From Oligoflexales bacterium (GTDB taxonomy: Bacteria; Bdellovibrionota_B; Oligoflexia; Oligoflexales; RGVZ01): 64,000 bases of DNA. Numbering within the stretch: position 1 is the stretch's first letter; the number at the start of each line of letters is the position of its first letter. The stretch spans positions 1 to 64,000 of the forward strand of contig CANFEB010000008.1 of the NCBI GenBank assembly GCA_947445775.1. The letters run 5' to 3'. This document shows, in pieces, positions 28,797 through 39,928 of this stretch. A model generated the notes under the pieces. That model was not told the origin of the DNA, did not search any database, and was given only the letters and a program-made list of their open reading frames with translations. A program made the translations under genes and the position numbers.

Positions 28797-29087
28797 ATGC
28801 GGCTGAATCGCGGTGAAATAGATTCCATCAAGTCTGCCATTTATCAAATTGATTCTGGGGCGCGCATTTTTCTTTTTGGATCCCGCGTTCGCGACAACGC
28901 TGCTGGCGGCGATATCGATTTACTTGTGGAATCACAAATAATTCAGTTCGATGATAGAATATCGATATTGGCAGCCATCAAAAAAAATCTTGGCGAACAA
29001 AAAATTGATCTGATTGTGACGAAGGATCTGGCGAACGACTCAGACCCATTCATTCAGTCGATCAAAGATGAAATGAAAAAAATTTGA
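28797..29087 (+). CDS. MNT-type nucleotidyltransferase (antitoxin-like)
   Basis: IFLFGSRVRDNAAGGDIDLLVES. Confidence 0.88.
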   Translation: MRLNRGEIDSIKSAIYQIDSGARIFLFGSRVRDNAAGGDIDLLVESQIIQFDDRISILAAIKKNLGEQKIDLIVTKDLANDSDPFIQSIKDEMKKI

Positions 29088-29533
29088 CCAAAACATCATC
29101 TCAACCACTCTTGGAAAAATACTCGCAGCAGGCCGAAAAAGCTGCGCTCTGGCTGCAGCGTTCCTTACAGAAAACCATTTCATTCCAAATCACGGAAAAC
29201 ATCTCCGAATCGGAATTTGATGTGTTGGAAAACTTAACTTCTCGCTTTGCGAGACTGAGTGACATTTTGTTTCAAAAAGTATTTCGTGCTATCGATACCG
29301 CGGAATTGGAAACACCAGGTTCTATCATCGACGTTCTCAACCGCGCAGCAAAGCGCGGCATTGTTGCCAACGACAAAACGGCCCGCGAGTTGCGGGAATT
29401 ACGCAACACCATCGCCCACGAATACACCGAAGAGCAGTTAATTGAATTGTTCAAGAAAATTCGCAAGGTCAGCCCTGAACTATTGGTGATCCACGAAAAC
29501 GCCAAGAAATATATTGCCGGCCGTTTTCCATAA
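29084..29533 (+). CDS. HEPN-domain toxin-like protein
   Basis: RELRNTIAHEY (R-x4-H); TTG start overlaps the MNT stop by 4 bp. Confidence 0.8.
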   Translation: MTKTSSQPLLEKYSQQAEKAALWLQRSLQKTISFQITENISESEFDVLENLTSRFARLSDILFQKVFRAIDTAELETPGSIIDVLNRAAKRGIVANDKTARELRELRNTIAHEYTEEQLIELFKKIRKVSPELLVIHENAKKYIAGRFP

Positions 29534-29537
29534 GTGC

Positions 29538-30713
29538 CTATTCCCTGTTTTTACGTGAATATGCCCCATCCCAAAGCCGATCCAGAAACAATCGCCACGG
29601 CAAGATGTCTATTCCGTTTTCATGACGGGGGCGTTCCTCATTACAGACCAGGATGTACTGGCCGCAAATATTTTCTTCCATAAGGGCCTTTAATCCCTTT
29701 TGGTGTTGGGTCGTCACGCGATTCGTTGATTTGACTTCAATCGCAATATGACCGTCCAAGATGAAGTCCACTTCGAACTTCGAAGTAGACCTCCAATACT
29801 GCAAGGTTGCCAGTGGCTCGAAGTAGTCAATCCAGGCTTTAAGTTCCATCATGATAAATTGTTCAAAAAACTCACCCCACTCCGTTTGTTCGGGGACAAT
29901 CCACGGCAAGCGCCGAAGTGCCCGCACGATCCCGGTATCGAAAAAGTAGAACTTCGCGGTGTCAATGGACTTGCGTTTTACCGTTTTTGTGAAGGGCGGA
30001 ATTTCCCACGCGAGAAGCGTGTCGTATAGTACTTGAAACCAGTTTTGCACTGTGGCGCGTGAAATCTTGGAATCGTTTGCGATCGACGTATAGTTAATAA
30101 GTTGTCCGTTGGCTAATGACGCAACTTGAAGGAATCGACTAAATGCCGGAAGATTTCTCGCCACACCCTCACCGGCAATTTCCTCGGTAAGATAGCGGCC
30201 AACATAAGAGGCAAGGTCTTCATCCGGGGCTTCCGCTAAATAATGTGACGGAATCAATCCGTGATTCAAAGCACGGGCAAGGTCAAACCCATTGTTTTTC
30301 AGCTCTTGATAAACAAACGGATGAAAATTTCTGTCCCGCCCCCGACCACCCAGGAGGTTGGCGCCTGATTTTTTTAGTTTTCTGGCACTTGAACCGGTCA
30401 GCAAGAATCGGATGCCACGCTCCTCAATCATAAGATGAATTTCATCCATCAAAGCAGGGCATTTCTGGATTTCGTCGATGAAAACGATTGAATCGCGCAG
30501 ATTATCAAATTCAATTTCTTTGCGAATTAATGTCGGATCGGCCAAGAGTCGCAGCAGAAGGCCCTGGTCTAGCAAGTTGTATGTTTTTGCTATCGACGAA
30601 GAGAGTTGTTCCCGAACATAACTTGACTTCCCAGTTTGGCGCGGCCCAAAGAGCAACACGGTTTTTGATTTAAGAAGGGATGAAAGAGGTATAACCCTCT
30701 GAATGTACGTCAT
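29538..30713 (-). CDS. AAA ATPase, DUF4143-type
   Basis: TVLLFGPRQTGKSSYVREQL, IVFIDEIQKCPALMDEIHLMIE, FLLTGSSARKLKKSGANLLGGR, C-terminal VDFILDGHIAIEVKST. Confidence 0.92.
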   Translation of the reverse strand: MTYIQRVIPLSSLLKSKTVLLFGPRQTGKSSYVREQLSSSIAKTYNLLDQGLLLRLLADPTLIRKEIEFDNLRDSIVFIDEIQKCPALMDEIHLMIEERGIRFLLTGSSARKLKKSGANLLGGRGRDRNFHPFVYQELKNNGFDLARALNHGLIPSHYLAEAPDEDLASYVGRYLTEEIAGEGVARNLPAFSRFLQVASLANGQLINYTSIANDSKISRATVQNWFQVLYDTLLAWEIPPFTKTVKRKSIDTAKFYFFDTGIVRALRRLPWIVPEQTEWGEFFEQFIMMELKAWIDYFEPLATLQYWRSTSKFEVDFILDGHIAIEVKSTNRVTTQHQKGLKALMEENICGQYILVCNEERPRHENGIDILPWRLFLDRLWDGAYSRKNRE

Positions 30714-31692: not shown

Positions 31693-33003
31693 TCATGAGG
31701 CGATGTCTCTCGTGCAATGCAGGACCGCATATAGAGGATAGTTTTCGTATTCGCCGGCCTGTTGAAAATTAAGCAGATTGACGCGACAGGCGCGGGTTAA
31801 TTCGGGATATCGATCTCGAAAGGAACGCAGGGATTTTGATTTGACGTTGATTCCTGCTTTAGCTTCAAGTGGAAGAATGGTTCCTGCGGACTGAATCACA
31901 AAATCGATCTCGGCATTCCCCGAACTTTCCCAATAGTGAAGTGCCTTGCCCTTGAAGACCAATTGCTGTGCGACGTAGTTTTCGATGAAAGCGCCATGAA
32001 ACTCATGGAAAACTCGTGACCCACGGTACAGCACATCAAAAGGAAGGTCGGCCAACGCCCCCAGCAATCCAATATCGAGAACGTACACCTTAAAAATATG
32101 AGGATCTTCATAGGATCGCAAAGGCATCGCGGCCTTGGCAATGCGGTGGCAGTAATGAATCAACCCGGCGTCCTTCAACCACGCGAGAGTCGATTCATAG
32201 TCACGACCGCGCGCTCCACGACGAACTGCCGAAAAAATAAAACGTTTGTTTTCGCGAGACAGGTGAGAAGGTATCGAACCCCATACACGGGACAACTTGG
32301 GAATGTCGGACGCCGGGGCATGTTTGGCGAAGTCGTTCTGATAGCCCCGCAAGATAGTTTCCTAGATATGACGTGCCTTGGCAAGGCTACCGGCACCCGC
32401 AAATCCCGCAACCACTTCCGGCATCCCGCCGACGATGAAATAGTTTGTCAGATGCGTCAGAAACTTTTGGTGAAAGGCATCGGCCAACGGCACTAGGTCG
32501 CGTTTTCCTTCGAGCAACGCGCGCAATGCAGCGCCGTTGTTTGCGTCAAGAAACTCTTCAAACGTCATAGGGAACAAATCAAGGAAATCAACCTTTCCAA
32601 CGGGAAATGATCGTCCCTGCGACATCTTGACGCCAAGCAATGATCCGGCCGCAACCACATGATACTCAGGGGCTTCCTCGCAAAAATATTTGAGCGCATT
32701 GAGCGCCGCATTGCATTCTTGAATCTCGTCAAAAATAAGGAGCGTTCGTCCGGCCTCGATTTCCTTTCCCGTGTAAGCCGAAATCTTTGTGACAAGAATT
32801 TTGGGATCAAGCGTTTCTTGAAAGAGTGTCGCCAATAGCGGGTCTTTTTCAAAATTCAGAAGCACAAAGCTCTCGTAACAAGTTTCACCAAGCCACTGAA
32901 GTGCATAGGATTTTCCAGTTTGCCGAGCCCCCCGCAAGATTAGAGGTTTGCGCTCTGGAGAGCGGGACCAAGCACGGAGGTATTCAAAGATATCCCGTTT
33001 CAC
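31693..33003 (-). pseudogene. AAA ATPase, DUF4143-type, interrupted by one in-frame TAG at 32362-32364
   Basis: ORFs 32362-33102 and 31693-32352 are in the same frame; junction reads ...GSLAKARHI-TAG-ETILRGYQNDFAKH...; GTG start at 33003 inferred. Confidence 0.9.
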
Positions 33004-33217
33004 CGTTAAACCACCGTATTTATTGGGTTTGTATAATATATACGCTACAATAACGTGGGCTATTTGCCAATTATTCCATCGAATAACGTGTAAAGATCCC
33101 ACTCTTTATGATCATAAATAGTGTGTCTGTCCCGTCCCAGGAAGAATATCCCACGACAGCTCGACCTGCCTCAGCTCAAATTTTCCTCGCTATGTTTGCC
33201 GCCGCGCCAAGACAGCA

Positions 33218-33679: not shown

Positions 33680-33697
33680 GACTGTCTCCCCGTGATA

Positions 33698-33727: not shown

Positions 33728-35884
33728 GTGGAAATCAGGGCATTCGCCGAACAAGTTTTGTCGGGAACGACCATAGAAGATAAGATTTCAGCACCTGACG
33801 CTGCTGGCGTTTGGCCTTTTGCCGATGACGCGCCCGGCCCCGCCTTGGACGCGCCGCCCGATCTGCCGGGCCGCCCCCCCGAACTCGCCTTTGACCGCCG
33901 CCCTCCACACTCCGATCAATTTCCGGGCGGCGGACGCCTTTCCAGCAAACTGACCGATCCCCGTGGGCGCGGCATCGTCCTGCACTACTTCGCCAACCAC
34001 GAACTCTTGGCCCTTGAAGTCATGGCCCTGGCCCTGCTGCGCTTTCCTGATGCACCAAAGGCTTTTCGTGCCGGCATTGTGCGCACGATGCTCGAAGAGC
34101 AAGGCCACTTGAAGATGTACATCACGCGCATGGCCGAACTCGGGGTCACATTTGGCACCCTGCCGGTCAACAGTTTCTTCTGGCGCACGCTCAAAAATAT
34201 CGCGTCACCGGCTGAATACGCTGCGGCGATGTCCCTTACATTTGAACAAGCAAATCTTGATTTTGCCCTGCACTACGAAAAATCATTTCGTGATCTGGGA
34301 GATGACATAACCGCCGACATCATGCTCCAAATCCACGACGACGAGGTCCGCCACGTCGAGCACGGCGTTGTCTGGCTGCGGCGCTTTGAGGCGGAAAAAA
34401 CCCTTTGGGAAAGCTACCGCAAGCACCTGCCCTTTCCCCTGACCCCCAGCCGGGCCAAGGGCCCCGTCTTTGACGAATTGGGTCGCGCCCGCGCCGGGAT
34501 CGATCCGGTATTCATCTCAGAATTAAAAATCTTTAGTTCTTCAAAGGGACGCCCGGCCGATTTCTGGTTCTTTAATCCGGGCTGCGAACGCGAACTTGCC
34601 TGCCACGGCAAATTGCCTTTCATGCCGGCCAAGGCTGCCTTCATTGAACACGATCTGTCGCCGCTGCTGATGTTTCTTGCAGCGGCGGATGATCTGGTTA
34701 TGGTTAGCCGAAAACCGTCGCTCCCGTTTCTTTCAAGCCTGAAGCTTGCCGGTTTTTCCGTCCCAGAATTTATTGAAGCCGGCGAAACACCCAACACCGC
34801 CGCACTGGAAAAAATTCTCGGCAGCCGCAAACTAGGTTCACTGCGTCCATGGGGGCAAACTCCGGCGGCCATGGCTTGGTTCGCCCCACTCGCCAATCGC
34901 TTCACCAGAATGCCAGGGACTTGGCCACGGGGTTTTGACGTTTTTTTTGGCAAGGATTTCGCAGCGCGCGTAGCTCCGGACGATTATTCGGGCCAATTAT
35001 GCCGCCAGATTTCTGAAGTCTCCGCCGTGGCGCTTCAGATAAAGTCCCGAGGGTTTTCTCACCTCGCCATCAAACCAGTCTTGGGTGCATCGGGGCTTGG
35101 CCTGCGCCGCATTGCTGTGGAAGCCCTGATAGCATTGGAGGCCGACGCATCTGAAATTTCAGAAAACGTAAAAATCGACCTGCCCTGCATCGCAGAACCG
35201 TGGCTCGATAAAGTCTGCGACTTGAGTGTTCTCTTTGATGTCGAAAAAAATACGGGCAACGTCCGCATCATCGACATCACGCGCCCGCTTATTGACCGCA
35301 GCGGAAAATATTCTGGGCATGCGTTAGGCAGGCCGTTTACTTTTCCTGATGCGAACGCCAAGCCGCTGACCCAAGATTTTTTCAGCCAGTTTTATTCTGT
35401 GTGGATGGACCAGTTGCGCGAGAGCGCTCTCGATTGCGGGCGAAAAATGGCTGCCGAAGGCTTCTCCGGCCCCGCTGGAATCGATGCCCTCGTGTTTCGT
35501 GATCCACGGAATGCCAGTCTTTGCCTGCGCCCCGTCGTCGAAATTAATCCACGGCTCTCCATGGGACGCATCGCCATCAACTTGGAGCGCCGCCTGGCGC
35601 GGGGCCAACCAGCCGTATGGCTGCACATCCACAAAAATGTGCTCCACCGCACGCGCCATCACGCACCAGGCAAGTCCTTTGCCGATTTTTCTATGGAAAT
35701 GACGCGCCGCTTTCCGTTGGTCACCACCAGCAAATCTGAATCAGCCCAGGCAGACACCCTCGTTAAATCTGGATTTCTTCCCACCAATGATCCGGAAATG
35801 GCAAACGGCATCTTGACAGCGTTGTTTGCTGGCCAAGATGCCGCACAATATGCTTGGAACCTTCTCTATCAAAAGCCTGACTAG
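33728..35884 (+). CDS. ferritin-like (DUF455-type) domain fused to ATP-grasp-like domain
   Basis: N-terminus: NHELLALEVMALALL, LEEQGHLKMY, HDDEVRHVEHG; C-terminus: KPVLGASGLGLRR, ..VEINPRLSMGRIAINLE; GTG start inferred. Confidence 0.8.
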   Translation: MEIRAFAEQVLSGTTIEDKISAPDAAGVWPFADDAPGPALDAPPDLPGRPPELAFDRRPPHSDQFPGGGRLSSKLTDPRGRGIVLHYFANHELLALEVMALALLRFPDAPKAFRAGIVRTMLEEQGHLKMYITRMAELGVTFGTLPVNSFFWRTLKNIASPAEYAAAMSLTFEQANLDFALHYEKSFRDLGDDITADIMLQIHDDEVRHVEHGVVWLRRFEAEKTLWESYRKHLPFPLTPSRAKGPVFDELGRARAGIDPVFISELKIFSSSKGRPADFWFFNPGCERELACHGKLPFMPAKAAFIEHDLSPLLMFLAAADDLVMVSRKPSLPFLSSLKLAGFSVPEFIEAGETPNTAALEKILGSRKLGSLRPWGQTPAAMAWFAPLANRFTRMPGTWPRGFDVFFGKDFAARVAPDDYSGQLCRQISEVSAVALQIKSRGFSHLAIKPVLGASGLGLRRIAVEALIALEADASEISENVKIDLPCIAEPWLDKVCDLSVLFDVEKNTGNVRIIDITRPLIDRSGKYSGHALGRPFTFPDANAKPLTQDFFSQFYSVWMDQLRESALDCGRKMAAEGFSGPAGIDALVFRDPRNASLCLRPVVEINPRLSMGRIAINLERRLARGQPAVWLHIHKNVLHRTRHHAPGKSFADFSMEMTRRFPLVTTSKSESAQADTLVKSGFLPTNDPEMANGILTALFAGQDAAQYAWNLLYQKPD

Positions 35885-39172: not shown

Positions 39173-39613
39173 GTGACGTCACCAGATATCCGCTGGAAAC
39201 AAAGATTCGACAATTACATCCGGGCCCTTGCCGCGCTAGAAAGCGCGGTCTCCCTGACAAAATTACGTCCGCTCTCAGACCTCGAAAAACAGGGACTCAT
39301 CCAGTCCTTTGAATTCTGCCACGAGCTCGCCTGGAACTTGGTAAAGGACTATCTGGAGCATCAAGATTTCAGCTCGCCGTTCGGTGGTGAAAATTTTGGT
39401 TATAACATGACAGGGTCGCGGGACGCGATGCGCGAGGCCTACAAGCGCGGATTGATCACACATGGCGACGACTGGGCGGACATGATCGGCAGCAGACACC
39501 TCTCGACGCATACCTACAACAAGAAAATTGCCGATGACATCGGCACCAAGATCACCAGCAGTTATTTCGATCGTTTTGTTGAACTGCGAACCAAATTTTT
39601 GTCATTCGGCTGA
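39173..39613 (+). CDS. HI0074-like nucleotidyltransferase substrate-binding / HEPN-family protein
   Basis: FEFCHELAWNLVKDYLEHQ, GLITHGDDWADMIGSRHLSTHTYNKKIAD (R-x4-H); GTG start. Confidence 0.9.
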   Translation: MTSPDIRWKQRFDNYIRALAALESAVSLTKLRPLSDLEKQGLIQSFEFCHELAWNLVKDYLEHQDFSSPFGGENFGYNMTGSRDAMREAYKRGLITHGDDWADMIGSRHLSTHTYNKKIADDIGTKITSSYFDRFVELRTKFLSFG

Positions 39614-39616
39614 CTA

Positions 39617-39928
39617 ATGATCGACAGCAAAACATGCGGACTCTCTTCGCGCACTCAATCCGGCCTGATGGAAGCCTTCAGGGCATTTCCCTCTGTGATT
39701 CAAGTCAAATTGTTCGGGTCACGAGCCATGGGCTGCTACCGAGAAGGATCGGACATCGATCTGGCCCCGGTCACCAATCAATTCAGCCATTCCGACCTTC
39801 TGCGCCTGAGTCAGAAAATCGATGACCTCTTGCTCCCTTACAAAGTGGACCTAGTGGTCATGCACGAGATTGAGAACCCCGCCCTGGTCGATCACATCAA
39901 CCGGGTTGGCCTAGATTTTCTCAGTTGA
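39617..39928 (+). CDS. MNT-type nucleotidyltransferase (HI0073-like)
   Basis: VKLFGSRAMGCYREGSDIDLAPV. Confidence 0.9.
   Translation: MIDSKTCGLSSRTQSGLMEAFRAFPSVIQVKLFGSRAMGCYREGSDIDLAPVTNQFSHSDLLRLSQKIDDLLLPYKVDLVVMHEIENPALVDHINRVGLDFLS

Follow-up and report, generated by a model that had tools for sequence, protein, structure and literature searches.

A ferritin-like DUF455 domain fused to an ATP-grasp domain: a candidate bifunctional enzyme of Bdellovibrionota

DUF455 is a protein domain family to which no function has been assigned. In the window analysed here (a 64,000-nucleotide stretch of contig CANFEB010000008.1, from an Oligoflexales bacterium whose assembly amounts to ~2.5 Mb), one gene joins such a domain to a second, ligase-like half, and the question it raises is whether the two halves act together and, if so, in what chemistry. 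The first-pass annotation of this DNA had read the gene as a ferritin-like (DUF455-type) domain fused to an ATP-grasp-like domain, suggestive of a two-step modification pathway and a leading candidate for an undescribed enzyme. The motifs on which that reading was based (HELLALE, EEQGH, DDEVRHVEH, KPVLGASGLG and VEINPRLSMGR) are all present in the translation, and the gene lies where it had been placed (Table 1). An alternative in-frame GTG at 33692 would give a protein of 730 aa; homologues begin at the 33728 position. Against its closest relative (protein identity ~71%, 698 codons compared) the gene has 153, 101 and 365 changes at codon positions 1, 2 and 3, and this pattern, together with an architecture that recurs in tens of genomes, indicates that the open frame is coding and did not arise by chance; as read from the sequences, the changes are those of ordinary coding constraint. 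A Pfam search of the whole protein returned DUF455 as its sole match, with no known ATP-grasp family up to E = 1, and a PDB sequence search with the single protein found nothing.

Table 1. Position and conservation of the features of the fused gene (relatives: 55 fused and 16 split sequences)
Feature	Position	Strand	Basis
Whole gene	33728..35884	+	718 aa, GTG start, stop codon included
N-terminal ferritin-like domain, residues 1-257	33728..34498	+	DUF455 match in Pfam; four-helix bundle by AlphaFold; bacterioferritins nearest in Foldseek
E92, predicted metal ligand, helix 1	34001..34003	+	invariant, 71 sequences
E124-x-x-H127, predicted metal ligands, helix 2 (EEQGH)	34097..34108	+	both invariant, 71 sequences
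E173, predicted metal ligand, helix 3 (FEQAN)	34244..34246	+	invariant, 71 sequences
E206-x-x-H209, predicted metal ligands, helix 4 (DDEVRH)	34343..34354	+	E206 71/71, H209 70/71
C-terminal pre-ATP-grasp plus ATP-grasp domain, residues 258-718	34499..35881	+	Foldseek and family profile
K409, predicted first ATP-binding lysine	34952..34954	+	K 54/55 fused; split (n=16): R 9, K 5
K449 and glycine-rich loop KPVLGASGLG	35072..35101	+	K449 invariant wherever covered
E490, predicted ATP-site hinge residue (EPWLDK)	35195..35197	+	54/55 fused, 15/15 split
D586 (GIDA), predicted Mg-ATP site	35483..35485	+	invariant wherever covered
E605-x-N607-x-R609 (EINPR), predicted Mg-ATP and catalytic motif	35540..35554	+	N607, R609 invariant; E605 = D once

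The N-terminal half matches DUF455 (PF04305) at 4.3e-44 and 151.4 bits, against a curated cut-off of 34.3, and so belongs to the family. Modelled alone with AlphaFold it forms a four-helix bundle, to which bacterioferritins are nearest in Foldseek (target TM ~0.75 and probability 1.00, with an E-value of only ~0.008). Model, Foldseek and conservation together give the bundle with E, ExxH, E and ExxH ligands that defines the ferritin-like di-metal superfamily, as had been claimed from the motifs; these covered helices 1, 2 and 4, and the third-helix ligand, E173, had been overlooked. The predicted ligands are spaced by 32, 3, 46, 33 and 3 residues, resembling the ligands of Escherichia coli bacterioferritin (E18, E51, H54, E94, E127 and H130; spacing 33, 3, 40, 33, 3). 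Residues beyond the metal ligands are also invariant, among them H91, E97, Y131, N176, W152 and W216, and in the three stand-alone alphaproteobacterial DUF455 proteins compared the first four of these are instead I, D, V/L and G. Two stand-alone genes, L099 (Sinorhizobium meliloti pSymB) and L100 (Sphingomonas), lie immediately 3' of a peroxiredoxin gene.

The C-terminal half was assigned by structure prediction and profile comparison. AlphaFold2, run on 11 window or fetched sequences, models the whole window protein with a pLDDT of 80.3 and a pTM of 0.78, residues 453-458 in the glycine-rich loop falling below 50. Peptide ligases lead the Foldseek matches of this half in the PDB, namely 8ynd (2.1e-9), PGM1 (3wvq/3wvr), 7r8q (LdmS) and BesA (8yi6), all with E-values from 2e-9 to 3e-8. 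The protein of 7r8p/7r8q, SAOUHSC_02373, is given as an L-aspartate-L-methionine ligase (PMC12235713). A family profile that includes split relatives matched BesA and LdmS (7r8p) in the PDB at 4e-7, and the weak NCBIfam matches of C-terminal halves were again to LdmS and BesA. Membership of these equivalog families can be set aside: the window protein matches neither NCBIfam model up to E = 1, and the best C-terminal half in the family reaches 26 bits against the BesA model, whose cut-off is 750. The known Pfam ATP-grasp families likewise stay below their cut-offs (a split relative matches ATP-grasp_3 at 0.019). Membership of the superfamily is nonetheless clear from the predicted fold, the lysine pair, the glycine-rich loop and the D and E-x-N ligands, the first lysine being arginine in part of the split clade, so that the ATP-grasp assignment now extends well past the two motifs first quoted for it. 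Conservation across the fused and split sequences suggests that the predicted di-metal and ATP-grasp sites are both intact and under selection.

How consistently the two halves travel together was surveyed across phyla. Within Bdellovibrionota, the phylum of the window, 40 of 58 genomes carry DUF455, almost always as part of an open frame of 600-850 codons (the fusion), and every match to the C-terminal half sits inside a fused gene; the resulting association (38/38 genomes with DUF455 against 0/16 without, p 5e-14) is expected of a fusion and is not independent evidence. Strong matches occur in 22 of 388 sampled genomes of Verrucomicrobiota, and strong DUF455 matches in 25 of 193 of Myxococcota; some members of both phyla have the fusion, and separate, abutting genes for the two halves are the usual state in Myxococcota. 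Of 21 unfused cases, 20 come from the Myxococcota survey and one belongs to the class of the window. In 16 of the 21 an ATP-grasp gene sits next to the DUF455 gene on its strand, usually with an overlap of 4 or 14 bases. Four of the other five are from Myxococcota, and all four genomes encode a strong ATP-grasp match elsewhere: in three of them both genes are kept on different contigs (L145, L149 and L150, with partners L177, L178 and L176), while the separation of L152 from L180 is probably only a contig end. The fifth, L151, has the residues of the stand-alone type, and its genome also has a fused copy. Among 20 genomes that lack DUF455 the ATP-grasp match is moderate in one (1e-17), marginal in one (1e-4) and strong in none; counted with split and fused controls, the partner is present in 12/12 genomes with DUF455 and in 0-1/20 of those without (p 4e-9 to 6e-8 by Fisher's test, uncorrected for shared ancestry). 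A fused protein (L154) is nested in the split clade, implying that fusion arose twice or that a split reverted. The distances of the two halves correlate at 0.91 for split genes, a value that joint inheritance of adjacent genes would also give; over all sequences the correlation is 0.86, which is trivial for fused genes, and we place weight only on the split-gene value. L152, L156 and L157 carry additional sequence at the N terminus, which may be spurious (high-G+C open frames or contig ends). A search of phages found no relatives, and plasmids gave only partial, DUF455-type matches. About 0.6 kb after one full-length gene (L011) lies a fragment matching residues 674-715 (G040:C5:90403-90537), perhaps the remnant of a duplication.

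Judged from sequence comparison, the two halves almost certainly work together in one pathway as a functional unit, because they are fused, occupy overlapping genes where split, co-occur in genomes where apart, and reappear as a second fusion within the split clade. The coupling proposed in the first-pass annotation is thereby strongly supported.

The gene neighbourhood gives no comparable guide to what that pathway makes. The neighbours of about 40 fused loci are housekeeping genes that change between lineages (assigned by eye; among them TrpS, a purine nucleoside phosphorylase, MoxR/VWA and a flagellar-type gene), with no conserved operon among these loci; the neighbours of split pairs are equally unconserved, and no substrate, redox-partner or pathway gene was found conserved near fused or split loci. 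Since the fused gene is usually solitary, context yields no substrate clue, and the lack of a surrounding gene cluster argues for a small, self-contained pathway. The divergent Mpo1-like gene next to the fused gene in the window was dropped as a clue, since it turned up at only one other locus. The window also holds an AAA_14/DUF4143 ATPase gene (31693-33102, minus strand) that an in-frame stop at 32362-32364 divides into two pieces, each still with strong Pfam matches, and an intact relative of it at 29538-30713 (minus strand). Two nucleotidyltransferase/HEPN-type pairs at 28797-29533 and 39173-39928 (plus strand), in opposite gene order, resemble MNT-HEPN toxin-antitoxin modules.

Computation supports the two folds, the completeness of each predicted site and the functional coupling of the halves, whereas the iron, the O2, the amino acid substrate, the order of the steps and the passage of substrate between the halves are inferred. 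We hypothesize, with chances that we regard as evenly balanced, that the protein is a bifunctional biosynthetic enzyme whose N-terminal half oxidises an amino-acid-type compound and whose ATP-grasp half performs a ligation in the same pathway. The N-terminal half would hold a pair of metal ions (probably iron) in its E/ExxH/E/ExxH site of bacterioferritin type, activate O2, and hydroxylate, desaturate or cleave an amino acid or a small compound derived from one; the C-terminal half would use ATP to convert a carboxylate to an acyl phosphate, whose coupling to an amine would yield a dipeptide-like compound or an amide. Both reactions would belong to one pathway in every arrangement of the halves: fused, as overlapping genes or, in a few lineages, at separate loci. 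The predicted fold and ligand set point to an O2-activating diiron oxidase, membership of the ATP-grasp superfamily to the joining of a carboxylate to an amine, and the nearest relatives of the C-terminal half to an amino acid as its substrate.

Several observations count against this biosynthetic reading: bacterioferritin-like ligands also fit a ferroxidase or peroxidase, the surroundings of the gene hold no conserved substrate, redox-partner or pathway gene, part of the glycine-rich loop is modelled with low confidence, and stand-alone DUF455 proteins occur without an ATP-grasp neighbour. The N-terminal half might instead be a ferroxidase or a rubrerythrin-like domain detoxifying peroxide, with the ATP-grasp half making or attaching a small peptide for iron or redox homeostasis and no oxidative tailoring taking place. 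Bacterioferritins are indeed the closest folds, two of the three alphaproteobacterial stand-alone genes examined directly follow a peroxiredoxin gene, and the solitary, housekeeping-like character of the gene would suit such a role. We nevertheless think this unlikely, as the invariant residues listed above exceed the needs of storage, four of them set the paired clade apart from the stand-alone one, and no conserved peroxiredoxin or iron-uptake gene lies beside fused or split genes.

The same solitary genes and broad, housekeeping-like distribution would also fit a pair that acts on a macromolecule such as a protein, a ribosomal factor or tRNA, with the diiron half as the hydroxylase (compare MiaE, which hydroxylates tRNA) and the ATP-grasp half adding amino acids (as does RimK); macromolecule-modifying members exist in both folds. 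This appears to be the least probable of the readings, given that fold and sequence comparisons alike place the ATP-grasp half nearest to ligases of free amino acids or peptides and that no conserved candidate target gene lies nearby. Neither metal identity nor step order is fixed by sequence, and both predicted sites are complete, so the di-metal site could perform non-redox chemistry (as a hydrolase or isomerase), or ligation could come first and the dipeptide be the oxidase substrate. We consider these variants distinctly improbable: full E/ExxH/E/ExxH ferritin-type sets are overwhelmingly linked to O2 or peroxide, and ligation first departs from the preferred reading in order alone.

For the biosynthetic reading that we prefer, a more specific form can be put forward only tentatively: that the protein is the founding member of an uncharacterised pathway in which a ferritin-type diiron oxygenase, joined in one chain to a dipeptide-type ATP-grasp ligase, serves to make an oxidised amino-acid conjugate as part of general metabolism, outside any secondary-metabolite cluster, and that this pathway is widespread among Bdellovibrionota and the predatory bacteria related to them. 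If the chemistry is as we propose, a new metabolite would exist in Bdellovibrionota, Myxococcota and Verrucomicrobiota. One clade of DUF455 is in any case now tied, by fusion, overlapping genes and co-occurrence, to an amino-acid-ligase-like partner, which gives a domain of unknown function a two-enzyme hypothesis open to testing and, in this self-contained single gene, a target for expression. The description of the enzyme as new agrees with the literature searched, which includes few subscription journals: no description of a fused or paired DUF455 and ATP-grasp enzyme was found there, and no function for DUF455 emerged from the papers that mention it. The fusion may be catalogued without having been characterised.

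Several known systems resemble parts of this arrangement. Stand-alone DUF455 proteins have the same predicted metal ligands, but in Alphaproteobacteria they differ from the paired clade in having no ATP-grasp partner alongside. Verrucomicrobial proteins of ~450 aa (L092-L096), considered as relatives, have weak DUF455 scores and apparently two ferritin-like ligand sets, and were set aside as a separate tandem family. Bacterioferritin and aldehyde deformylating oxygenase have the four-helix fold and ligand pattern in common with the N-terminal half, at 14-19% identity and with weak E-values, and lack its additional invariant residues and its fusion to a ligase. PGM1, 8ynd (a Streptomyces peptide ligase), LdmS and BesA share the fold and Mg-ATP motifs of the C-terminal half at 12-16% identity, far under curated cut-offs, and none of them is reported to be fused to a diiron domain. 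A diiron oxidase and an ATP-grasp amino-acid ligase also share a pathway in BesC/BesA. They do so again in the mangotoxin system (MboA/MboC/MboD), and HDO diiron oxidases are frequently encoded close to ATP-grasp ligases of amino acids, a pattern documented with 1447 HDO sequences and at least 25 types of gene cluster (PMC13185094) that favours the reading preferred here. Those HDO systems have a haem-oxygenase fold and reside in multi-gene clusters, whereas the N-terminal half described here is a DUF455 domain of ferritin fold, carried on one polypeptide or a gene pair with no cluster; if our reading is true, the pairing of diiron oxidase with ATP-grasp ligase would extend from haem-oxygenase-fold clusters to ferritin-fold enzymes.
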